Shown here piece by piece: positions 1 to 10,104 of a DNA stretch of 10,190 nt. The notes beneath the pieces were generated by a model. It had not been told where the DNA came from. It saw nothing but the letters and a program-made list of their open reading frames with translations, and did not search any database. Where the stretch lies: NCBI GenBank assembly GCA_028819835.1, contig JAPPKR010000210.1, positions 1 through 10,190 on the forward strand. The letters run 5' to 3'. A program made the translations under genes and the position numbers. This stretch comes from a bacterium (GTDB taxonomy: Bacteria; Actinomycetota; Acidimicrobiia; UBA5794; ZC4RG35). Within the stretch, counting starts at the first letter, position 1. Every line of letters starts with the position of its first letter.

Positions 1-869
1 AGTTGTCGGACGTGTTCGCCGACACCGGCTTCCGGGCGTTCGCCGGTGTCCTGGCTTCGGGAGGGGTGGTGCGGGGAATAAACGCCGGCCCGATTTCCAT
101 GAGCCGGGCCCGGGCCGACGCCCTGATAGAGAAGGCCCGACAGTTCGGGGCGGGAGGGCTGGTGTGGATGGTGGTGGAGGACGGGGGTCCTCCCCGCTCG
201 CCGGTTGCGAAGTTCCTGTCCGACGCCGAACTCGACGGGGTGGTCCGGGACCTGGGGGGGAATCCCGGCGACGCCCTGTTGCTGGTGGCGGACGCCGAGC
301 GGACCGTCTCGGACGTCCTTGGCCGTCTGCGGTCGGAGTTGGGCCAGCCTGACGATCCCGGGCGTCTGGAGTTCCTGTGGGTGGTGGACTTCCCCATGTT
401 CGAGGAGCGGGACGGAGAGATCACCTTCCTCCATCACCCGTTCACCTCCCCGGCGGACGTTGAGATGATGAAGGACCGTCCCCTGGAAGCCGCGGCGAAA
501 GCCTACGACCTGGTCCTGAACGGCGTGGAGCTTGGTTCGGGGAGTGTCCGGATTCACGACTCCGACGTCCAGCGGCGGGTGTTCCAGATCCTGGGGATCT
601 CCGACGACGAGGCGGAGGAGCGCTTCGGATGGTTCATCCGTGCCCTGCGTTTCGGCACGCCCCCCCATGCCGGTTTCGCGGTGGGATTCGACCGCCTGGT
701 GGCGGTGCTTCGCGGGGTGGCGAGCATCCGGGAGATCATTCCCTTTCCCAAGACCCAGACCGGCGCCGAACCGCTGAGTCGCACTCCCGCCTCGGTCAGC
801 AACCGGCAGTTGAAGGAACTGGGCATCGCCGTCGATCCCCGCCGGATCAAGGCCTCCCCGCCGGCTTAG
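1..869 (+). CDS. aspS: Aspartyl-tRNA synthetase, C-terminal part (5' end outside window)
   Basis: Class II aminoacyl-tRNA synthetase that charges tRNA-Asp (and tRNA-Asn if non-discriminating) with aspartate in the cytoplasm. The gene enters the window already open; the first complete codon is at position 3, and the TTG there is internal, not a start. The visible 288 residues begin in the bacterial GAD insertion domain (about residues 8-115 of the fragment, with FRAFAGVLASGGVVRGINA). They return to the catalytic core at FLWVVDFPMFEE (124-135) and HHPFTSP (144-150), continue through the ELGSGSVRIH segment (176-185), and reach motif 3, HAGFAVGFDRL (222-232), whose Arg binds ATP. IPFPKTQTG (246-254) is the usual C-terminal signature. 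The anticodon-binding domain and motifs 1-2 lie upstream, so tRNA specificity cannot be judged here. The stop codon lies 5 nt before rarA, and the aspS-rarA order is common in actinobacteria. Confidence 0.97.
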   Translation, partial: LSDVFADTGFRAFAGVLASGGVVRGINAGPISMSRARADALIEKARQFGAGGLVWMVVEDGGPPRSPVAKFLSDAELDGVVRDLGGNPGDALLLVADAERTVSDVLGRLRSELGQPDDPGRLEFLWVVDFPMFEERDGEITFLHHPFTSPADVEMMKDRPLEAAAKAYDLVLNGVELGSGSVRIHDSDVQRRVFQILGISDDEAEERFGWFIRALRFGTPPHAGFAVGFDRLVAVLRGVASIREIIPFPKTQTGAEPLSRTPASVSNRQLKELGIAVDPRRIKASPPA

Positions 870-874
870 GACCG

Positions 875-2239
875 ATGGCCAGCTACGGCGCCGATGACCT
901 GTTCGCCGCTCGGCGGTCGGAGGTCTTGGCGGAGGTGGCGCCGCTGGCCGAGCGCATGCGTCCGAGGAGCCTGGACGAAGTGGTGGGATTGCCCGATCTC
1001 CTGGGCGCCGGGTCGGCCTTCCGGGTCCTGGTCGAGTCGGGCAGGCCCGTCTCGATGGTGTTGTGGGGCCCTCCGGGGAGCGGCAAGACCACCCTGGCCC
1101 GGTTGGTGGCCCTGCATTGTTCGGCGGCCTTCGAGACGCTCAGCGCCACCTCGGCGGGCGTCAAGCAGGTGAGGGAGATCCTGGCGTCCGCCCGTCGCCG
1201 CCTGGAGGGCGACGGCCGGCGCACGGTGTTGTTCCTCGATGAGATACACCGCTTTTCCAAGAGCCAGCAAGACGCTCTGTTGCCGGGGGTGGAGAGCGGG
1301 ACCCTGATCCTGATCGGGGCGACCACCGAGAACCCCTTTTTCGAGATCAACAGTCCGCTGATGAGCCGGATGGTGTTGTTCCGCACTCACAAGATCCCTG
1401 ACGAGGCGCTGGAGGTGCTGGTGGACAGGGCCCTGTCGGCGAGGCGACGAGGATTGGGGGAGGACGACCTGCAGATTGCCGGGGACGCCCGGGAGGCGCT
1501 GGTGACCAGATCGGGAGGTGACGCCCGGGGACTGTTGAACGCCCTTGAGGTCGCGGCGCATCTGGCCAAGGGCAGGGGATCAGGAGTTATCGAGACAGAT
1601 GACGTCTCCGAAGCGCTGGGTCAGCGGATAGTCCGATACGACAAGGCGGGAGACCGCCATTACGACGTGATCTCCGCCTTCATCAAGAGCGTGCGGGGTT
1701 CTGATCCCGATGCTGCCCTGTACTGGCTGTTTCTCATGCTTGAGGGCGGCGAGGATCCCGAGTTCATTGCCCGCCGGTTGGTGATCCTCGCATCCGAGGA
1801 CATCGGTATGGCTGACCGGTGGGCGCTTCCGGTGGCGACTGCGGCGGCCCAGGCCCTCTCCTACGTTGGGATGCCCGAGGCCGCCTATCACCTGGCCCAC
1901 GCCACCCTGTTCCTGGCTCAGGCGCCCAAGTCGAACTCGGTCACCTCCGCCATGGCCCGGGCGCGGTCCGCGGTCCGGGAGGGGCCCAGTCCCTCCGTCC
2001 CCCTCCATCTTCGCAGCGGTGGCTATCGTGGAGCAGACGTTATCGGACACGGAGAAGGCTACGTATACCCGCACGACCACCCCGGCCGCATCGTTCCACA
2101 GGATTACTTCCCCCCGGAGGTCAATCCACAGGTGTTCTTCCGTCCTACCCAAAGCGGTTTCGAAGCCGAAATCCGGCGACGCCTGATTGAGATCGATCAT
2201 GTGTTGGGACGAGCCGGACGCCAGGAGGAGCAGGCGTGA
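875..2239 (+). CDS. rarA: Replication-associated recombination protein A (AAA+ ATPase RarA/MgsA)
   Basis: AAA+ ATPase of the RarA/MgsA/WRNIP1 family, which acts at stalled replication forks and on single-stranded DNA ends in the cytoplasm. The product is 454 residues, close to the usual ~440-450. Walker A is GPPGSGKTT (65-73), Walker B VLFLDEIHRF (118-127), sensor 1 GATTENP (148-154), a likely arginine finger SRM (164-166), and sensor 2 GGDAR (214-218). The C-terminal tetramerisation half has the family segments SEDIGMAD (307-314), PKSNSV (351-356), PLHLRSGGY (376-384) and YPHDHPG (398-404). ATG 875 is chosen because AGGA lies 5-8 nt upstream, overlapping the aspS stop, and because the product length fits; the frame stays open upstream to 629 but only inside aspS. 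The last codons carry the glucokinase ribosome-binding site and overlap its start by 4 nt, so translation is probably coupled. Confidence 0.97.
   Translation: MASYGADDLFAARRSEVLAEVAPLAERMRPRSLDEVVGLPDLLGAGSAFRVLVESGRPVSMVLWGPPGSGKTTLARLVALHCSAAFETLSATSAGVKQVREILASARRRLEGDGRRTVLFLDEIHRFSKSQQDALLPGVESGTLILIGATTENPFFEINSPLMSRMVLFRTHKIPDEALEVLVDRALSARRRGLGEDDLQIAGDAREALVTRSGGDARGLLNALEVAAHLAKGRGSGVIETDDVSEALGQRIVRYDKAGDRHYDVISAFIKSVRGSDPDAALYWLFLMLEGGEDPEFIARRLVILASEDIGMADRWALPVATAAAQALSYVGMPEAAYHLAHATLFLAQAPKSNSVTSAMARARSAVREGPSPSVPLHLRSGGYRGADVIGHGEGYVYPHDHPGRIVPQDYFPPEVNPQVFFRPTQSGFEAEIRRRLIEIDHVLGRAGRQEEQA
2223..2228 (+). promoter_or_regulatory. Strong Shine-Dalgarno site for ppgK inside the end of rarA
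   Basis: AGGAGG, 7 nt before GTG 2236. It is a perfect anti-SD match and fixes the GTG as the glucokinase start. The start overlaps the rarA stop as GTGA (2236-2239), the usual layout for translational coupling. Confidence 0.85.
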
Positions 2240-3012
2240 CCGCTCTGGGAATTGACATCGGCGGCTCGGGAGTCAAAGGCAATCTGGTGGACGCCGCCAC
2301 CGGAGCGCTCCTGTCCGAACGCCTTCGCATACCCACTCCCCGCTCGGGGTCCACCGAGGCGGTGGGCGAGGTGGTGGCGGAGATAGCCGAGCACTTCCGG
2401 CAAGAGAGCGGGCATGAAACCCTACCTGTGGGGTGCGGGTTTCCCGGGGTGATCAGATCGGGCGTCGTAAGCGCCGCCACCCACCTGGACAAGGCCTGGC
2501 TGGGCGCCGACGTGGTCGCCATTCTCTCCGAGGCGGTGGGGAGTCCGGTCACCGTTCTCAACGACGCCGATGCGGCCGGGGTGGCCGAGATCACCTTCGG
2601 GTCGGCCAAGGATCGGAGCGGCACGATCCTGATGATCACCCTCGGCACCGGGATCGGGAGCGGGATGTTCCGGGACGGCCGGCTGGTTCCCAATTTCGAA
2701 CTGGGCATGCTGGAACTGGGCGGTCATCACCCCATCGAGGACCGGGTGGCCTACCGCGTATTCAAGCAGGGGGAGTTGAGTTGGAAGAAGTGGGCCAGAC
2801 GGTTGAACCGCTACCTACGGCATGTCAACGCGCTCTTCGCTCCGGACCTGATAGTTCTCGGGGGAGGAGGGGTGAACAAGTGGTCCCGCTTCGGCCACCG
2901 CCTGGATGTGCCGGTGGATGTGGCCCCCGCCCATTTCGGGAACCATGCCGGCATCGTCGGCGCCGCCCTGGCCGCGGTGAACCCAGGCGCCCTGATGGGG
3001 GAGAATGGTTGA
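2236..3012 (+). CDS. ppgK: Polyphosphate-type glucokinase, ROK family
   Basis: Phosphorylates glucose to glucose 6-phosphate, in this subgroup using inorganic polyphosphate and often also ATP; cytoplasmic. The product is 258 residues, close to Mycobacterium PpgK (about 265). Visible motifs are the phosphate loop GIDIGGSGVKG (5-15), FPGVI (69-73), LNDADAAG (108-115) with the putative catalytic base Asp110, and TLGTGIGSG (135-143). The PpgK-typical region LSWKKWARRLNRYL (181-194) and PDLIVLGGGGVNK (203-215) follow. There is no N-terminal helix-turn-helix and no CxCGxxGC zinc motif, so it is not a ROK repressor or a zinc-type ROK kinase. One oddity: the sugar-site motif ExGH reads ELGM, with Met158 in place of His. 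The start is GTG 2236, preceded by AGGAGG. It is the last gene of the aspS-rarA-ppgK run. The ROK assignment is firm; polyphosphate use is inferred from resemblance. Confidence 0.9.
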   Translation: MTALGIDIGGSGVKGNLVDAATGALLSERLRIPTPRSGSTEAVGEVVAEIAEHFRQESGHETLPVGCGFPGVIRSGVVSAATHLDKAWLGADVVAILSEAVGSPVTVLNDADAAGVAEITFGSAKDRSGTILMITLGTGIGSGMFRDGRLVPNFELGMLELGGHHPIEDRVAYRVFKQGELSWKKWARRLNRYLRHVNALFAPDLIVLGGGGVNKWSRFGHRLDVPVDVAPAHFGNHAGIVGAALAAVNPGALMGENG

Positions 3013-3365
3013 AGCCCCGACAAGGTAAGGGGTGTAGGCGAAACTGGTTGTATCCCTTGGGAAGAGTGTGAAAACATCCCACTCGGAAGCGTTGACTTTT
3101 GTCCCACCCGCAATACACAGTGGAATGAACCAAACATCGAGACGGTCCGCTTCAGGCGCCGACCGGACCGCGTCAGGCATCAACACCCGTGATCCGATCA
3201 ACCCCCGTCGGGCTGGACAGCTCATTTCTGCTCTGGAGAGGTGGTGGTGGGTGAGGGAGCCCAAAGGGAACCCCGTTTTTCGCGCTTTTGTGATTTATGG
3301 GGTGGGCGGCATCGGTTGAGAGGCCATGCGTAGCGTCCCCGCCATTCACTTCCCGTCGCTACATG
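3013..3365. other. Convergent intergenic region (353 nt) without a convincing gene
   Basis: Lies between the ends of ppgK (+) and hflX (-). A frame on the + strand is open from GTG 3068 to TGA 3319 (83 codons), with an internal ATG at 3125. It has no good ribosome-binding site and its product, rich in Arg, Gly and Trp (a WWW run), resembles nothing I recognise, so I do not call it a gene. A TTGACT at 3092-3097 with TACACA 16 nt further on looks partly like a promoter but lacks the final T of a -10 box. I see no tRNA or other known RNA. An imperfect inverted repeat at the hflX end is listed separately. Confidence 0.5.
3325..3365 (-). terminator. Possible hflX transcription terminator (imperfect inverted repeat)
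   Basis: CATGCGTAGCG at 3325-3335 pairs with CGCTACATG at 3357-3365 across a 21-nt loop with a 2-nt bulge. The repeat directly abuts the hflX stop codon. No U-tract follows on the - strand, so termination is only a suggestion. Confidence 0.3.
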
Positions 3366-4712
3366 TCAGGGGGGGTCCGTCCCGGACTCCGGGCCGCCAG
3401 GCTCTTTGCTAAAGAAAGCGGAGAACCGGCTCACCTGGTCGGGAGGGAGCCTGACTACCAAATCTATTCCGTCGGGGCCCTCGTTCGAGGAGAGAACTTC
3501 CCCTGTCCGGTGGAGAGCCGCCAAGGCGTCTCCTCTGGCGTAGGGCACCCGCACCGAGATGGTCGAGGAGCGGGCGTTCAGCCAGCGGATGAGCGTCTCC
3601 ATCAGTTTCTCGGTCCCCTCGCCGGTGAGCGCCGACACGGCGACTGCGGTCTCGGCGGCTCCTAGGAGGCGCCGGACCACTGAGGGAGACGCCGCATCGA
3701 TCTTGTTCACCACGATGATGGTCGGCACCGAGTCCGCCCCGATCTCGGCCAGGACTTCCCGGACCGCCGTGATCTGGCCTTCCGGATCGGTGTCATCGGC
3801 GTTTACGAGATGGAGTATCAGGTCGGCGTCGCGGACCTCCTCCAGAGTGGACTGGAAGGCTTCCACCAAGCGGTGGGGGAGCCTCCGTACGAATCCCACG
3901 GTGTCGGCCATGAGCATCTCCCGGCCTCCTGGTAGCCGGAGGCGGCGGATGGTGGGATCCAGGGTGGTGAACAGGCGGTCTTCGGTGAGCACCCCGGCGC
4001 CGGTCAGCTGGTTCAGGAGGGTCGACTTGCCGGCGTTGGTGTAACCGACCAGGGCGATGATGGGCACTGCGGCCTGGACGCGAGATTGGCGCCGGGTTTG
4101 GTTCTGGCGCCGGAGGGCGGATAGATCCTTCTCGAGGGAGGTGATCCTCTGGCGGATGCGGCGGCGGTCGCTCTCGAGGCGGGTCTCTCCCGGCCCCCGG
4201 GTGCCGATCCCTCCCGCCTGCTGGGAAAGCTCCTCGCCCGTGCCGCGAAGACGGGGCAGCCGGTAGCGCAGCAGCGCCAGTTCCACCTGGAGCGCTCCCT
4301 CCCGGGAGGTGGCGTGCTGGGCGAAGATGTCGAGGATCACCGCCTCGCGGTCCACGACGTCACATTCGAACAATGCCTGCAGGTTGCGTTGTTGCGCGGG
4401 GGTGAGAGCATTGTCGAACACCACCACGTCGATGTCCTCTGCCTTGGTGATGTCGGCCACTGACGCTGCCTGGCCCTTGCCGATGAACAGTCCGGGATCG
4501 GGAGCCGGTCGGTTGAACACCTCCCGGTCGACCGGCTCGGACCCGGCGGTGTCGGTCAGCAGAGCCAGTTCTTCGAGGGACTGTTCCACCTCGAGAGATG
4601 AGTTGCGCCCCAGACGCACTCCCACCAGGAAGGCTCTCTGGCGGGGTACCTCGAGGTCTGCAACCGTGGCGGTGAGCCGGCGGCGTTCCCGGCCGAGATG
4701 TTGATAAGTCAT
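3366..4712 (-). CDS. hflX: GTPase HflX
   Basis: Translational GTPase that binds the 50S subunit and, in studied bacteria, splits or rescues stalled and stress-inactivated ribosomes. The product is 448 residues (E. coli HflX has 426). The N-terminal HflX domain spans roughly 25-215. It contains FIGKGQ (76-81), FDNALTPAQQRNL (99-111), VVDREAVILDIFAQHA (119-134) and the glycine-rich GGIGTRGPGETRLE (167-180), followed by a charged helix. The G domain has G1 GYTNAGKST (223-231), G2 TTLDPT (249-254), G3 DTVGF (270-274), G4 NKID (336-339) and G5 SALTG (360-364). A short C-terminal domain of about 65 residues follows. The ATG at 4710-4712 gives the expected length; its upstream GGACGGAG lies rather close (2 nt), so the exact start is less certain than the identity. 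It lies 24 nt downstream of the small unknown gene and is probably co-transcribed with it. Confidence 0.96.
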   Translation of the reverse strand: MTYQHLGRERRRLTATVADLEVPRQRAFLVGVRLGRNSSLEVEQSLEELALLTDTAGSEPVDREVFNRPAPDPGLFIGKGQAASVADITKAEDIDVVVFDNALTPAQQRNLQALFECDVVDREAVILDIFAQHATSREGALQVELALLRYRLPRLRGTGEELSQQAGGIGTRGPGETRLESDRRRIRQRITSLEKDLSALRRQNQTRRQSRVQAAVPIIALVGYTNAGKSTLLNQLTGAGVLTEDRLFTTLDPTIRRLRLPGGREMLMADTVGFVRRLPHRLVEAFQSTLEEVRDADLILHLVNADDTDPEGQITAVREVLAEIGADSVPTIIVVNKIDAASPSVVRRLLGAAETAVAVSALTGEGTEKLMETLIRWLNARSSTISVRVPYARGDALAALHRTGEVLSSNEGPDGIDLVVRLPPDQVSRFSAFFSKEPGGPESGTDPP

Positions 4713-4736
4713 TTCTCCGTCCGGAGGGTTGGAAAC

Positions 4737-5036
4737 CTACAGATACTGACCCTCGTCGAGAGCCTCCTCGGGCTCCTCCTCGGCGATGATCTGGGATTGG
4801 CGGACCGCCACCACCGGCTTTCCGGTGGGCGGCCACAGAAAACGCCAAGCGCCGGTGGGGACCGCCCAGAAGTGCCGGCCGGTCACCACGTCGATCAGGG
4901 ACAGCGCGTCGTTCTGGCCGTTGGCGCCGGTTGACACCAGGAGTCCCGAGCGGGTGGTGGATTCCTGCGGGACGTGCCCCACCCTCCAGCCATTGGACAC
5001 TTTGTATTCGGTCGCTTCGTTCTGATTGGAACCCAT
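4737..5036 (-). CDS. Uncharacterised small protein between moaA and hflX
   Basis: I do not recognise this protein. From ATG 5036 it is 99 residues; an in-frame GTG two codons earlier (5042) would give 101. It has no signal peptide, membrane segment or cysteine. The N-terminus is polar. The middle has several short hydrophobic stretches likely to be beta strands (SGLLVSTG, DALSLIDVVTG, KPVVAVRQSQIIA), around an aromatic segment HFWAVPTGAWRFLWPP. The tail is strongly acidic (AEEEPEEALDEGQYL). Evidence for a real gene is indirect: codons keep the local G/C third-position preference, it fills the gap between two same-strand genes, and its spacing is operon-like (53 nt after moaA, 24 nt before hflX). 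The ribosome-binding site is weak for either start. A soluble regulatory or binding protein is possible, but I assign no function. Confidence 0.65.
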   Translation of the reverse strand: MGSNQNEATEYKVSNGWRVGHVPQESTTRSGLLVSTGANGQNDALSLIDVVTGRHFWAVPTGAWRFLWPPTGKPVVAVRQSQIIAEEEPEEALDEGQYL

Positions 5037-5089
5037 GTTCACTTAGTTTGGCGCGTCAGCGGGAGACTTTGTCTGTTTCGGACAGCATC

Positions 5090-6115
5090 TCACCCGCCTA
5101 TGTAGCTCATCTCCACCTTTTGCCCGATCCCCACCGTCTCGCCCGAGCGAAGCTCCGAGTACTGGTCCACTCGATCCGACCAGACCGAGCCGATCTGCCG
5201 GCGAAGTTCCTCATCGGAAGCCCCGGAGCGGACCGCCTCTCGGAGATCGGTCCCGAACACCGCGAACAAGCAGGTGTAGAGCTTTCCGTCTGCCGAGAGT
5301 CTGGCGCGGGTGCAGTCTCCGCAGAAGGGCTGGGTCACCGATGCGATCACCCCCAACTCTCCCTGACCGTCGGTGTATCGCCAGCGCTTCGCAACCTCGC
5401 CCCGGTAGTTGGGCACGAGGGGCTCGATGGGAAAGACGTCGTTGACGGTGCTGATGATCTCATGCGCCGGGGTCACGTCGTCCAGCCTCCAGCCGTTGGT
5501 GACGCCGACGTCCATGTATTCGATGAAGCGGAGGATGTGGCCGCTCCCCCGGAAGTGTTCCGCCATCTCCAGGATGGAGTGGTCGTTTACCCCCCTCCGG
5601 ACCACCATGTTGACCTTGATGGGGGTGAGCCCCGCATCGGTTGCGGCGTCGATGCCGGCCAGCACGTCGGACACCTTGGCGCCCACGTCGTTCATGGTCG
5701 AGAAGACCTCATCGGAGAGAGAATCGAGGCTCACCGTCACTCGATCGAGTCCGGCGGCGGCCAACGCTCGCGCCTTTCGGGGGAGCAAGACACCGTTGGT
5801 GGTGAGGGTGAGATCGGCGATGCCCGACACCCCGGCCAGCATTCCCACCAGCTTCTCCAGACCGGCTCTCAGGAGGGGCTCGCCGCCGGTGAGCCGTACC
5901 TTCCTCGCGCCCAGGGAGGTGAAGATCCCCGCGAGGCGGGTTATCTCCTCGAAGCTGAGGAGCGCGGTGCGTTCCAGGAACTTGTAGTCGCGATTGAAGA
6001 TCTCCTTGGGCATGCAGTAAGTGCACCGGAAATTGCACCGGTCGGTGACCGAGATGCGCAGGTCCGCCAGGGTCCTGCCCAGGCGGTCGAAGGGCTTCAC
6101 GTTTAGGTTGCTCAC
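5090..6115 (-). CDS. moaA: GTP 3',8-cyclase MoaA (molybdenum cofactor biosynthesis)
   Basis: Radical SAM enzyme that, with MoaC, converts GTP to cyclic pyranopterin monophosphate, the first step of molybdopterin synthesis. The product is 341 residues, normal for the family. The N-terminal radical-SAM [4Fe-4S] site is CNFRCTYC (Cys27, Cys31, Cys34) and the SAM-binding GGEP is at 77-80. TLTTNG (103-108) and VTVSLDSL (126-133) are family core strands. The second, GTP-binding cluster uses Cys265 and Cys268 (FCGDC) and Cys282, with TRARLSADG (269-277) between them. The C-terminal Gly-Gly tail (340-341) needed for catalysis is intact, so the gene looks functional. The start is GTG 6115, with AAGG 10 nt upstream. 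It is the first gene of the - strand run and diverges from the AIM24-family gene. No other molybdopterin gene is in the window. Confidence 0.97.
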
Positions 6116-6223
6116 TTGGCCATGACCTTAGCAAGGAACGGATCCTCCGGGTTCCCGGTATTGCCGCCGCAAAACACCCCGAATCCGCCAGACTTGAGAC
6201 CCAAGCTATCGGTAAGGAGTGCC
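6116..6223. promoter_or_regulatory. Divergent intergenic region between moaA and the AIM24-family gene
   Basis: 108 nt that must hold the promoter of the + strand gene and probably that of moaA. I see no convincing -35/-10 pair on either strand. A small inverted repeat, CTTG-AGACC-CAAG (6193-6205), lies just before the AAGGAG ribosome-binding site (6214-6219) of the + strand gene. It is too short to call an operator. Confidence 0.4.
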
Positions 6224-6976
6224 ATGCGAAGCCACGACATCGACTACGAGATCCGGGGAGACGATCTGCAGTTCGTGGAGGTGTACCTGGATCCGGAGGA
6301 GACGGCGGTTGCGGAGGCCGGGACCATGATCTTCATGGACGAGGGTGTCACGTTCGAAGCCAAGATGGGGGACGGGTCCGAGCCCGAGGGAGGAGGCGGC
6401 TTCTTCCGGAAGGCGAAGAGCGCGGCCGGAAGGGTCCTGAGCGGCGAGTCCCTGTTCATGACCCATTTCACCAACTCGGGCGGCGGACGGGCGAAGGTGG
6501 CTTTCGGCGCCTCGGTGCCGGGCAAGATCGTGCCTCTCGACTTGGCCCAGATAGGGCGGCCGGTGATCTGCCAGCGTGACGCCTTCCTGTGCGCGGCCCT
6601 GGGGACCAAGGTCTCCATGCACTTCAATCGCCGCTTCGGCAGCGGCCTGTTCGGCGGCGAGGGCTTCATCCTCCAGAAACTGGAGGGCGACGGGATAGCG
6701 TTCGTGAACGCCGGCGGCATGGTCGTGGAGCGTCATCTGGCGGGAGAGACCATCCGCATCGACACCGGATGCCTCGTCGGCTTCGAAGAGGGAATGGAGT
6801 ACTCCATCGAGCGGGCCGGGGGGCTCAAGACCATGGCCTTCGGCGGCGAGGGAATCTTCCTGGCCACGATAAGCGGGGTGGGGCGGGTCTGGGTTCAGTC
6901 CCTTCCCTTCTCCCGGCTGGCCGATCCCATCATCAGCGCGGCGGTCGCCGCGGCCGCAGCAGCCTCCAGCAAATAG
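6224..6976 (+). CDS. AIM24 / TIGR00266 family protein
   Basis: Member of the AIM24-like beta-sandwich family (TIGR00266), widespread in bacteria and related to yeast mitochondrial AIM24; the bacterial biochemical role is not established. The 250-residue product matches the family's usual length. Characteristic segments are [13 protein letters not shown] (30-42), a glycine-rich loop [13 protein letters not shown] (53-65), [10 protein letters not shown] (75-84), and the C-terminal run [13 protein letters not shown] (145-157), [10 protein letters not shown] (160-169), [12 protein letters not shown] (177-188), [12 protein letters not shown] (199-210) and [10 protein letters not shown] (220-229). 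An alanine-rich tail ends the protein. ATG 6224 is chosen because AAGGAG lies 4 nt upstream and family similarity begins here; the same frame is open 36 codons further upstream but overlaps the moaA promoter region. It has no signal peptide. Its stop lies only 5 nt from the - strand relic at 6982. Confidence 0.92.
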
Positions 6977-6981
6977 CGTTC

Positions 6982-7121
6982 CTAGAGGGCGTGTTTCTTT
7001 AGGCCTTCCAGGCTGATCCACTCTATGGCGGCCCCGGTGGTTGCGGCCGCTGAAACGGGATTCATCGGATGATAGATTCGCGAGAAGGTATCGCAATGAC
7101 CGTTAAGGGAATTTAGCAACA
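6982..7121 (-). pseudogene. Relic of a gene 3' end, paralogous to the gene entering at 10190
   Basis: Read on the - strand, codons ending at TAG (6982-6984) give AAIEWISLEGLKKHAL, matching AALEWINLDDLKKHAL at 10132-10182. By hand count 43 of 51 bases agree, and five of the eight differences are at third codon positions, as expected for two diverged coding copies. Upstream of the match the same frame stays open for only about 30 more codons, to ATG 7119-7121, through unremarkable, increasingly AT-rich sequence overlapping the promoter region of the protease gene. I therefore read it as the leftover 3' end of a truncated gene, not an intact 46-residue gene, though a real short protein cannot be excluded. 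I do not recognise the parent family. Confidence 0.5.
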
Positions 7122-7140
7122 TATTAATTATTTCTGTCGA

Positions 7141-7146
7141 TATAAT
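7141..7146 (+). promoter_or_regulatory. Probable -10 box of the metzincin-SLH gene
   Basis: A perfect TATAAT in an AT-rich stretch (7110-7147) that stands out from the surrounding GC-rich DNA. It lies 33 nt before ATG 7180, so a transcript would have a leader of roughly 27 nt containing AGAGAAGAA (7162-7170) as ribosome-binding site. No recognisable TTGACA sits 16-18 nt upstream, so an activator or an alternative sigma factor may be needed. Confidence 0.55.
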
Positions 7147-7179
7147 GGGGGATTAACCGCAAGAGAAGAATGATTGGCA

Positions 7180-10104
7180 ATGCAGACCCTGAGATTGCGT
7201 GCGTCCCTTGATAGCAAAGCCAGCTGGTCCCTTCTGAGATGCTTGCCAGTGCTGTTGGCGACGATAGGCGTTGTTTGGCTCGCATCCCCATCCGTAGCGG
7301 CCGGGGACAGGATCGAAGAATTGTATGAGGATGACCCGTTGGGTCTGGTCGCGGCTTACAAGGTGAGAACCCACTACAGCCTGGATGAAGATCTTTGGGA
7401 CGTGTGGATTTGTGAGGTTCCGGACGGCACTTTGCAGCTTTCGCCGGAGGAGACTGTGGAATTGCTGCAGGCGAAGATAGCTCCTTATTTTGGTTGGCTG
7501 TCAGGAGGTCGTTATCGCCCCTCCTTCAGGGTGGGCGGTGTGGTCGTGGTGGCTTCTTCTCTTCACGCGAAGGATTGCAACGATGCTGTTTACGAAGCTG
7601 CACGAGGTGTGGATCCGCAGGAGAGGGCGGAAGGGGCGATGATCGTAGTCAATAAGCCCCTGTATCAAAGCGATGCCAGTATTGGTTTTCTAGATAGCGT
7701 CTCCCCGGTCGAGATAGAGATTTCTCACGACACGTTCCCGAGAAACGGCCGGAGCCTGCTACTAACCGGCGCCTCGGTTGCGGCGCCAGGTAGTCTGTCT
7801 AACCTGACGAACAGGCCCACCCCGATCCTGACCACCGTCGCTCATGAGATGGGCCATGCCATTGGCTTCCCGCACTCCTTTCGTTTCTCTCCGTATGACC
7901 ATCCGATGGATGTCATGGGTGGCAACGACGCGGTTTCCCTCGAGGTTGGGACCATTGCCATCAATCGCTACGCAGCCGGTTGGATAGATTCGGCCGAGGT
8001 GCAGGTCTTTGAGAAGGGAAGAGCCAGGTACAGGCTCCGTCCACCGGGTGACGGCGACACCCAGATGCTGGTCTTGCGATCGGACCAGAGTGGATTCATA
8101 ACGTTGGGAGCCCGTGCCAGGAAAGGGTTTGACTCCGGAATACCCAAAGAAGGGGTGGAATCGTACTTTGTCGATTATCAGGCATGCAGCGACAGCCTTT
8201 ACAAAGCTTGTAGACCGTCCCTCACTCCTGTTCAGGCGGTAGTTGCCGCCGGCCAAGCTGTTCCTCTCAACCTGGAGAATGATGTCGCCCATGTGATGGA
8301 GGTAGGCGGCGGTTACACCTGGGAAGGCATCACGGTCAGAGTGGTGGAACGGATCGGCGATGACTACATCGTGGAGGTGGACGATGGGCCTTCCCCGATG
8401 CCGATCGCAGGCGACGGCATCGACGATCGGGTCTCAAATGTGCGAAATGACCAACTGTACGAAGACGACCCCCTGGGATTGATAGCCGGGTTCAACGTGA
8501 CCACTCACTATGGCTTGGGTGAGGATATTTGGGATGTGTGGATTTGCGAGACTCCGGGAGGCATCTTTGACATCTCCGTTGAGAAGACGTTGGAACTGCT
8601 GAAGGCTGAAGTAGTTCCATATTTCAAGGGGATCTCAGGGGGCCGCTACAGCCCTTCCTTTCGCGCCGGCGGGACAATCACAGCGGAGGCGTTCGACAAT
8701 TGGAAGGGATGCATAGATCCGGTTTTCGAGGCTTCGAGACAAATCAGTCCCGAGGGAAGAGCGGAAGGCGTCATTGTCGTGGCCGATCGCATAACAGCAA
8801 GTTTTGGAGGCATTGGAACTGTGTCTCATTTATCAGCCGTCGAGGTGGTATTGAGGGATACGACTTTTCCGGACAACTATCGAGACGTGACATTGTCAGG
8901 TGCTTCGGTTGCGGAGGAGGGTAGTTTGCCGCCGGGAGTCTTCCTGGACGCGCTATTGCCGATTCTGTCCCAAGTCGCTCATGAGATAGGACACGCCATA
9001 GGCTTTCCGCACTCCTTTCGCTTTTCTCCGTATGACCATCCGATGGACATCATGGGGGACGACGATGCGGTACCCGGTCTGCAGGTTGGGACCATTGCGA
9101 TCAATCGGTATGCGGCCGGTTGGATGGATGCGGCCCAGGTGGAGATTCACGAGAAGGGAAGATCCAGGTACAGGCTCCGTCCTCCGGGTGACGGCGGCAC
9201 CCAGATGCTGGTACTCCGATCGGACCAGAGCGGATTCGTTACCTTGGGAGCCCGCGCCAGGAAAGGTATCGACTCCGGGATACCCAAGGAAGGCGTGGAA
9301 TCGTATTTTGTTGAACAGCAGTCGGAGGAATGCTATGGCTCCTCTGTTTATGAAGCATGCTTTGGTACATCGAGACGTACTCAGGCAATCATTCCTCCCA
9401 GCCGGGCCATCCCGCTCGATCTGCAGGACACCGTCGCCCACGTGATGGAAGTTGGTGACGGTTACACATGGCGAGGTCTAACGGTCACCGTAGTAGAGCG
9501 GATCGGTGATGACTTCGTTGTGGAGGTGGTTGACCAATCCTCACCCAATCGGTTTATCGATGACGACTGGAATGTTCACGAGAGGAATATTGAGACCATC
9601 GCAGGCCGGGGGATCACCCTTGGGTGCAACCCGCCCGCCAACGACCGATACTGCCCATCCCGGTCCGTCTCGAGAGCGGAGATGGCCGCCCTACTGATCC
9701 GGGCTCTCGGGGAGAGCCCGACAAGCTCCGCCACTTCCGTCCGGTTCACGGACGTGCCTCGCGGTGGCTGGTATGTGGGACATGTGGAACGGCTGGCCGA
9801 GTTAGGCGTGGTGGGGAGAGACGGAGAAGGCTCTCTCTTCAGACCTCTGGAGCCGCTTACCCGCTTGGAAATGGCGGTATGGATGGCTCGCTCCTTTGAC
9901 TCGATCAGCGAGGTGACTCCCACGGGAGCGTTTTCCGATGTGCCAACCGATGTGTGGTATGCGGGAGCTGTCGAGGGGTTGCTAGAGGCGGGTATAACGA
10001 GAGGCTGCTCCACTGATCCCCTCTCCTACTGTCCCCACGACCATGTCTTGCGTGACCAGATGGCCTCGTTCCTGGCCCGCGTCTTGGCCAGCGAAACAGA
10101 CTGA
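7180..10104 (+). CDS. Secreted tandem metzincin-like zinc protease with three SLH repeats
   Basis: Predicted exported, cell-wall-attached metalloprotease of 974 residues. Residues 1-41 look like a Sec signal peptide: basic start, hydrophobic core LPVLLATIGVVWLA (22-35), and likely cleavage near SVA|AG (40/41). Two homologous modules follow, at about 48-406 and 426-789. Each has the metzincin zinc motif HExxHxxGxxH (His222/226/232 and His601/605/611, with Glu223 and Glu602) and a Met-turn MDxMG (Met246 and Met625), so both sites look catalytically complete. The spacing and the later RYAAGW and GVESYFV segments recall M6/M11-like enzymes; this is a resemblance, not a family assignment. Each module keeps four cysteines (78, 133, 336, 344; 456, 511, 718, 727), probably disulfides. 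Three SLH repeats (about 792-845, 856-908, 918-974) should bind a wall polymer. ATG 7180 is preferred over TTG 7174 because AGAGAAGAA lies 9 nt upstream of it but only 3 nt from the TTG. The substrate is unknown. Confidence 0.85.
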   Translation: MQTLRLRASLDSKASWSLLRCLPVLLATIGVVWLASPSVAAGDRIEELYEDDPLGLVAAYKVRTHYSLDEDLWDVWICEVPDGTLQLSPEETVELLQAKIAPYFGWLSGGRYRPSFRVGGVVVVASSLHAKDCNDAVYEAARGVDPQERAEGAMIVVNKPLYQSDASIGFLDSVSPVEIEISHDTFPRNGRSLLLTGASVAAPGSLSNLTNRPTPILTTVAHEMGHAIGFPHSFRFSPYDHPMDVMGGNDAVSLEVGTIAINRYAAGWIDSAEVQVFEKGRARYRLRPPGDGDTQMLVLRSDQSGFITLGARARKGFDSGIPKEGVESYFVDYQACSDSLYKACRPSLTPVQAVVAAGQAVPLNLENDVAHVMEVGGGYTWEGITVRVVERIGDDYIVEVDDGPSPMPIAGDGIDDRVSNVRNDQLYEDDPLGLIAGFNVTTHYGLGEDIWDVWICETPGGIFDISVEKTLELLKAEVVPYFKGISGGRYSPSFRAGGTITAEAFDNWKGCIDPVFEASRQISPEGRAEGVIVVADRITASFGGIGTVSHLSAVEVVLRDTTFPDNYRDVTLSGASVAEEGSLPPGVFLDALLPILSQVAHEIGHAIGFPHSFRFSPYDHPMDIMGDDDAVPGLQVGTIAINRYAAGWMDAAQVEIHEKGRSRYRLRPPGDGGTQMLVLRSDQSGFVTLGARARKGIDSGIPKEGVESYFVEQQSEECYGSSVYEACFGTSRRTQAIIPPSRAIPLDLQDTVAHVMEVGDGYTWRGLTVTVVERIGDDFVVEVVDQSSPNRFIDDDWNVHERNIETIAGRGITLGCNPPANDRYCPSRSVSRAEMAALLIRALGESPTSSATSVRFTDVPRGGWYVGHVERLAELGVVGRDGEGSLFRPLEPLTRLEMAVWMARSFDSISEVTPTGAFSDVPTDVWYAGAVEGLLEAGITRGCSTDPLSYCPHDHVLRDQMASFLARVLASETD
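7321..8454 (+). repeat. First copy of tandem ~1.13-kb intragenic repeat (protease module 1)
   Basis: Begins at LYEDDPLGL (residue 48) and repeats with a period of 378 residues; small indels shift the base offset from 1134 at the start to 1140 near the end. It includes the zinc site at 7843-7917 and a short linker (about residues 403-425). By hand count, 8011-8160 agrees with 9151-9300 at 133 of 150 bases. Confidence 0.9.
8455..9546 (+). repeat. Second copy of tandem intragenic repeat (protease module 2)
   Basis: Begins again at LYEDDPLGL (residue 426) and ends near residue 789, just before the SLH repeats. The zinc site is at 8980-9054. It is most similar to copy 1 around the active site and the RLRPPGDG segment, and least similar around residues 130-190 of module 1 and their counterparts. 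Confidence 0.9.

Follow-up and report, generated by a model that had tools for sequence, protein, structure and literature searches.

Domain organization of the double-module protein

The window, the whole 10,190-nucleotide stretch of contig JAPPKR010000210.1 from an actinobacterium of the class Acidimicrobiia, contains on its plus strand an open reading frame (positions 7180-10104) that encodes a putative exported protein with two protease modules. The product is 974 amino acids long when read from ATG, and an alternative TTG start is located 6 bases upstream of this ATG. A putative signal peptide (residues 1-41, positions 7180..7302, +) is indicated by a hydrophobic stretch, with the cleavage site judged by eye; residues 18-34 are the most hydrophobic 17-mer within residues 1-76, and SPSVAAGD comes next. 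It is followed by an N-terminal M6-like metzincin module recognized by a module hidden Markov model (residues 43-417, positions 7306..8430, +), a C-terminal M6-like metzincin module (residues 421-800, positions 8440..9579, +), and three SLH repeats (residues 797-973, positions 9568..10098, +).

The two modules are 60% identical across 365 columns (E 2e-159), and because of this extent of similarity they are, as judged from sequence, a real tandem duplication and not a chance resemblance. Identity along the entire module also rules out a chance occurrence of the zinc motif. An identical protein (100%) is encoded in JAPPFD010000032.1 of the metagenome-assembled genome RHO1_bin_22. The bacterium is presumably marine, and RHO would point to a sponge origin. 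The double form does not stem from an error in one assembly, since the near-identical protein P0002, which has 974 residues and differs from the window protein in four of them, is encoded on a separate 1.47-Mb contig (the contig of locus L001 has 226 kb). A duplication made by assembly is also unlikely given that the modules differ at 40% of their residues. Pfam reports two stretches in the SLH region, although the structure model contains three helix pairs and matches the Sap SLH domain across 175 residues; the repeat number of three, proposed in a first-pass annotation made from the letters alone, is therefore correct.

Zinc sites and conserved segments

Both modules carry a full HExxHxxGxxH motif, a Met-turn candidate, and four cysteines (Cys 78/133/336/344 in the N-module and Cys 456/511/718/727 in the C-module), located where the first-pass annotation had placed them. 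The RYAAGW segment is also present in both. The first zinc site, HEMGHAIGFPH, spans residues 222-232 (positions 7843..7875, +), and the second, HEIGHAIGFPH, residues 601-611 (positions 8980..9012, +), which agrees with the earlier numbering of Glu223 and Glu602 as the glutamates of the catalytic motifs. Both motifs fit the metzincin consensus HExxHxxG/NxxH/D, in which the variable position is Gly or Asn in the portion of the source used here (PMC12237041).

Conservation was evaluated in a family sample composed of the window protein and the best 120 matches from each of two protein searches (295 and 484 matches), with the near-identical P0002 excluded. Of its 178 proteins, 34 have two modules, the window protein included, and 144 have one; because a double served as the seed of the first search, 34:144 is not a natural ratio. 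The segment YDHPMD occurs at residues 239-244 with Met243 (positions 7894..7911, +) and at residues 618-623 with Met622 (positions 9031..9048, +). Position 243/622 is the better Met-turn candidate in the alignment because it is Met in 201 of the 210 modules that cover the site, compared to 168 of 210 for position 246/625. The Tyr of YDxPMD is missing in three of the six modules with a lost zinc ligand or Glu (P0018, P0053, P0057) and in four of the 204 intact modules (P0094, P0100, P0115, P0155), a hint that this residue may cooperate with the zinc site.

The N-terminal module begins at approximately residue 43, directly after the putative signal peptide, leaving little space for a prodomain. 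The well-conserved segment DDPLGL opens both modules (residues 51-56, positions 7330-7347, and residues 429-434, positions 8464-8481). DPLGL could conceivably be a short latency peptide that replaces the prodomain.

Fold and family assignment

The complete zinc motifs and the metzincin fold of the catalytic domain in the structure model support two complete metzincin sites, as had been proposed. The Pfam models Peptidase_M10 (PF00413; 24.9 of 24), Reprolysin_3 (PF13582; 23.5 of 22.4), and Reprolysin_4 (PF13583; 22.6 of 22) narrowly pass their cut-offs, and the best stretches of these matches are 16-37 residues at the zinc site, not most of the catalytic domain. The only NCBIfam match is the M6 domain TIGR03296, with 45.2 of 110.8 bits, well under its cut-off. 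The Pfam M6 model, which we take to be PF05547, is not listed for the window protein at E up to 1. A sequence search with the catalytic module hits no solved structure.

The structure model aligns with InhA2 (4yu5_B) over 287 residues of the model range 26-367, which include the catalytic domain and the following beta domain, and the Foldseek E value to InhA2 4yu6_A is 6.3e-4. In the improved model, InhA2 is at the top of the non-SLH fold matches. A full-length model calculated from 30 sequences has a predicted local distance difference test score (pLDDT) of 69, low near the zinc loops; in Foldseek, ADAMTS and ADAM entries precede InhA2 (rank 42) for this low-pLDDT model. From the M6/M11-like grouping proposed earlier, the M6 part is retained on the basis of the fold match, with a profile score far under the cut-off, and the M11 part is not: PF05548 reaches 13.1 bits against a cut-off of 21 at residues 217-270. 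No M11 structure is present among the fold matches listed, an absence that carries no weight as evidence. Membership in a known named family was rejected, since no model spans the whole module above cut-off; the profile searches of Pfam and NCBIfam are consistent with the earlier suggestion of a distinct family.

Distribution of relatives and genomic context

Among 296 genomes sampled from the class, 17 contain a match with an E value of 1e-70 or lower, and frames with double modules occur in at least seven of the 17 (G001, G002, G003, G111, G199, G277, G297) among the fetched loci. Partner domains in relatives among the matches listed are SLH, LRR, and FN3. The double L045 of genome G111 stops just past its second module, and no SLH was recognized by eye in downstream frames of at least 60 amino acids. 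Genome G001, in which the window sequence occurs, has six or more additional frames that resemble the protease module, on contigs C33, C26, C32, C36, C40, and C13, and many SLH matches, which together represent an expanded surface family.

The neighbours of the gene in the window (positions 1-6976), identified by eye, are the end of aspartyl-tRNA synthetase, a RarA-like ATPase, a ROK-type polyphosphate glucokinase, HflX (-), MoaA (-), and an AIM24-like protein. No genomic partner was recognized among the neighbours, which also offer no clue to a substrate; the genes downstream on L001 resemble, by eye, an amidase and a 2-oxoacid oxidoreductase of two subunits.

Retention of the zinc sites and variation of the motif glycine

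The residues His, Glu, His, His are intact in 204 of the 210 modules, and both sites are complete in 31 of the 32 doubles in which both are covered, with P0018 as the exception. Within doubles, the ligands and Glu are retained in 33/34 N-modules and in 31/32 covered C-modules. The six modules with losses belong to P0018 (C), P0068 (N), and four single-module proteins. Outside this count, the double L002 (positions 6001-8919, genome G002) has a degenerate zinc site in each module (APELGH...PPSY and AHVMGY...PHSK) together with an altered motif Tyr in both, making L002 a double pseudo-protease by sequence. The proteins L014 (G001; 555 amino acids) and L028 (G005; 554 amino acids) have no HExxH at the aligned place. 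Retention of both sites is thus the rule in the family, though loss occurs, and the survival of both in the window protein is not the surprise that it had seemed at first.

The Gly position of HExxHxxG is variable in the 204 intact modules: Gly occurs in 92, Trp in 28, Asn in 26, Ser in 16, Phe in 15, Glu in 11, Ala in 5, His in 4, Asp in 4, Thr in 2, and Arg in 1. Doubles have the motif Gly in 8/34 N-modules (lost in 26/34) versus 31/32 C-modules, and eight of them, the window's among them, have canonical motifs in both modules. Passages of PMC3890501 state that only Gly had been considered acceptable at this position, and describe exceptions in other families: Trp in homologs of a mini-zincin, and, among homologs of pappalysin, Asn, with Thr in one. 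We tentatively propose, at somewhat less than even confidence, a surface-protease family of actinobacteria, as yet unnamed, whose supposedly required zinc-motif Gly/Asn would be freely replaced by Trp, Ser, Phe, Glu, and others, with activity persisting. Its doubles would be of two kinds: asymmetric ones with a mostly Trp N-head and a Gly C-head, the heads of which evolve apart, and Gly/Gly ones such as that of the window, some of which would keep their cores alike via intragenic gene conversion.

Conflicting histories of the module core and N-terminal half

In a tree of 99 modules, the 24 N-modules of non-Gly-type doubles cluster with two single-module proteins (support 1.0), and the 24 C-modules of these doubles fall into a second clade with three single-module proteins (support 0.98), which indicates an old duplication with heads evolving apart. 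In the same whole-module tree, the modules of the window protein (P0001 in the comparisons) pair together with support 0.94, and those of the related double P0003 likewise with 0.90.

The pairing differs along the module. Of the six 30-residue blocks in 43-222, five show lower identity between the two P0001 modules than in either of the ortholog pairs, and P0003 is mixed there. In block 283-312, the within-protein identities are 93% and 100%, compared to 80% for orthologs; for P0001, blocks 253-282 and 313-342 give a mixed picture. Quartet sites of P0001 and P0003 supporting the orthologous, within-protein, and crossed topologies number 6, 2, and 3 in region 43-215; 0, 13, and 0 in region 216-330; and 5, 3, and 2 beyond. 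The 13 within-protein sites in a row span 216-319, flanked by orthologous sites at 188 and 342, an arrangement reached by 4 of 20000 shuffles. Likelihood comparison by the approximately unbiased (AU) test rejects the within-protein topology for 43-205 (AU 0.009) and the orthologous topology for 206-335 (AU 0.0002), whereas for 336-417 the orthologous topology is favoured, not significantly.

At residues identical between the modules, the window gene uses the same codon in 66/93 cases in the core and 53/118 outside (Fisher p 1.6e-4). Segment 199-336 has the highest synonymous identity, with 74/103 same codons, which 6 of 20000 shuffles reach. Based on synonymous identity and the quartet and AU tests, the inferred conversion tract comprises residues 199-336 in the N copy (positions 7774..8187, +) and the aligned residues 576-718 in the C copy (positions 8905..9333, +). 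The longest identical run between modules is 123 residues in P0003, 26 in the related double P0004, and 20 in P0001; it is 15-18 in five non-Gly-type doubles and 8-10 in five of the P0012 group. The cores of the control pairs P0005/P0022, P0005/P0008, and P0012/P0016 are orthologous, with 10, 18, and 21 orthologous sites and zero within-protein; that of P0005/P0022 is so also by likelihood. The core of P0004 is within-protein by likelihood relative to both P0001 and P0003. The conflicting histories suggest that the catalytic cores were homogenised by intragenic copying as the remaining parts of the two modules drifted apart.

Several results weigh against this interpretation. The N-half signal is thin in the site counts; it is not significant for P0001/P0004, and that of P0003/P0004 leans within-protein, also not significantly, while in some N-half blocks the P0003 modules are nearer to each other than to their orthologs. 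The P0004/P0012 core is split, with four orthologous to three within-protein sites. Exact runs of 20 and 26 are little above those of the five non-Gly-type doubles. The synonymous test covers one gene, the window's; P0003 was compared as protein, a search of 138 genomes from the order did not recover its DNA, and six other double genes with DNA have no clear core synonymous excess. Synonymous identity in L046 and L056 is above expectation in the N-half. The region borders were picked after the identity profile was known, and the p values from several tests are given as computed singly. With respect to function, L002 lost both zinc sites and P0018 and P0068 one each, and therefore the protein can be maintained even where catalysis is incomplete.

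Proposed function and alternative explanations

The explanation that we consider best as a whole, and probable on balance, is that of an exported, two-headed, SLH-held M6-like protease with cores kept alike by conversion. It builds on the computed architecture, fold, conservation, conflicting topologies, and synonymous excess, from which we infer zinc binding, activity, surface location, specificity, and substrate. The gene product would be exported and attached to the cell surface through its three SLH repeats. SLH binding to a pyruvylated cell-wall polymer would need a pyruvyl transferase; PF04230 is above cut-off in 4/4 genomes, but also in 8/14 control genomes, and the family is common. 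Each head would bind zinc via three histidines (222/226/232 and 601/605/611), with Glu223 or Glu602 as the general base, and both heads would cut extracellular protein as endopeptidases. The tandem duplication would predate the split of the window species from the P0003 species. After that split, intragenic gene conversion would have transferred the core (~199-336 / 576-718) from module to module, so that both sites stayed canonical even as the N-terminal halves grew apart. The zinc site, the residues that follow the third His, and the Met-turn region all lie in the converted core, and on the basis of metzincin anatomy both heads therefore probably share chemistry and the primed-side pocket and its specificity, and differ in the N-terminal half. 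As a general account, the earlier idea of modules diverging in specificity is opposed by the homogenised core, although the N-terminal half has diverged. The first-pass annotation anticipated neither gene conversion nor the loss of the motif Gly from most N-modules of related doubles.

It is also conceivable that P0001 and P0003 descend from single-module proteins, which duplicated recently and independently, and that the core is merely slow to change. The whole-module pairing of P0001 (0.94) and P0003 (0.90) modules and the 77% overall identity of the P0003 modules are in line with such a history, which is nevertheless quite unlikely: for the N-terminal half, the AU test rejects a pairing within proteins (0.009), and a slow core can yield neither variable sites shared within each protein nor a synonymous excess peaking in the core. 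Another alternative, unlikely but the least so of those considered, is that one head alone is a working protease and that its partner serves for binding or regulation, with a zinc site kept for folding. The absence of the motif Gly from 26/34 N-modules of doubles, compared to its retention in 31/32 C-modules, and the existence of the doubly degenerate L002 would fit this division of labour; the window's two sites are, however, canonical with homogenised cores, and ligands and Glu are equally conserved in N-modules (33/34) and C-modules (31/32). A non-proteolytic surface protein, such as an adhesin or S-layer component retaining an inherited zincin fold, could account for the association of modules with SLH, LRR, and FN3 domains and for L014 and L028, but the intact His/Glu/His/His of 204/210 modules is hard to explain without catalysis, making this the least probable alternative.

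Comparison with known systems

Top-ranked literature results contained no account of the family, the SLH-bearing double form, the glycine spread, or core-restricted conversion, and a term search of the available part of PMC12008989, on Acidimicrobiia-type actinobacteria of sponges, found 'S-layer' and 'protease' 0 times. The M6 peptidases are zymogens by virtue of an N-terminal prodomain, and 4yu6 is titled as a zymogen. Compared to the M6 immune inhibitor A InhA2 (PDB 4yu5/4yu6), the window module is 12% identical and far under the TIGR03296 cut-off, and the window protein has tandem modules, SLH repeats, and little prodomain room. The M10/M12 metzincins (matrixin, reprolysin) match in only 16-37 residues at the zinc site, with a fold match far weaker than that of InhA2, and the M11 gametolysin/autolysin family (PF05548) resembles the module in a weak profile match at residues 217-270, below cut-off. 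In contrast to the SLH domains of Sap and SpaA, those of the window protein are joined to two protease modules. The family as a whole is a natural series of zinc-motif variants for asking whether the metzincin glycine is needed.

Somatic angiotensin-converting enzyme (ACE) is of another clan, the gluzincins, and is an animal type I transmembrane protein. It shares with the window protein a tandem metallopeptidase duplication in one chain, and both of its domains are active according to the sections of PMC7148434 used here. Since two active metallopeptidase domains per chain are already known from ACE, the two-headed idea is not new. The window protein may represent a natural case of a two-site enzyme staying two-site, with conversion able to renew one head by copying from its partner as the remainder drifts.
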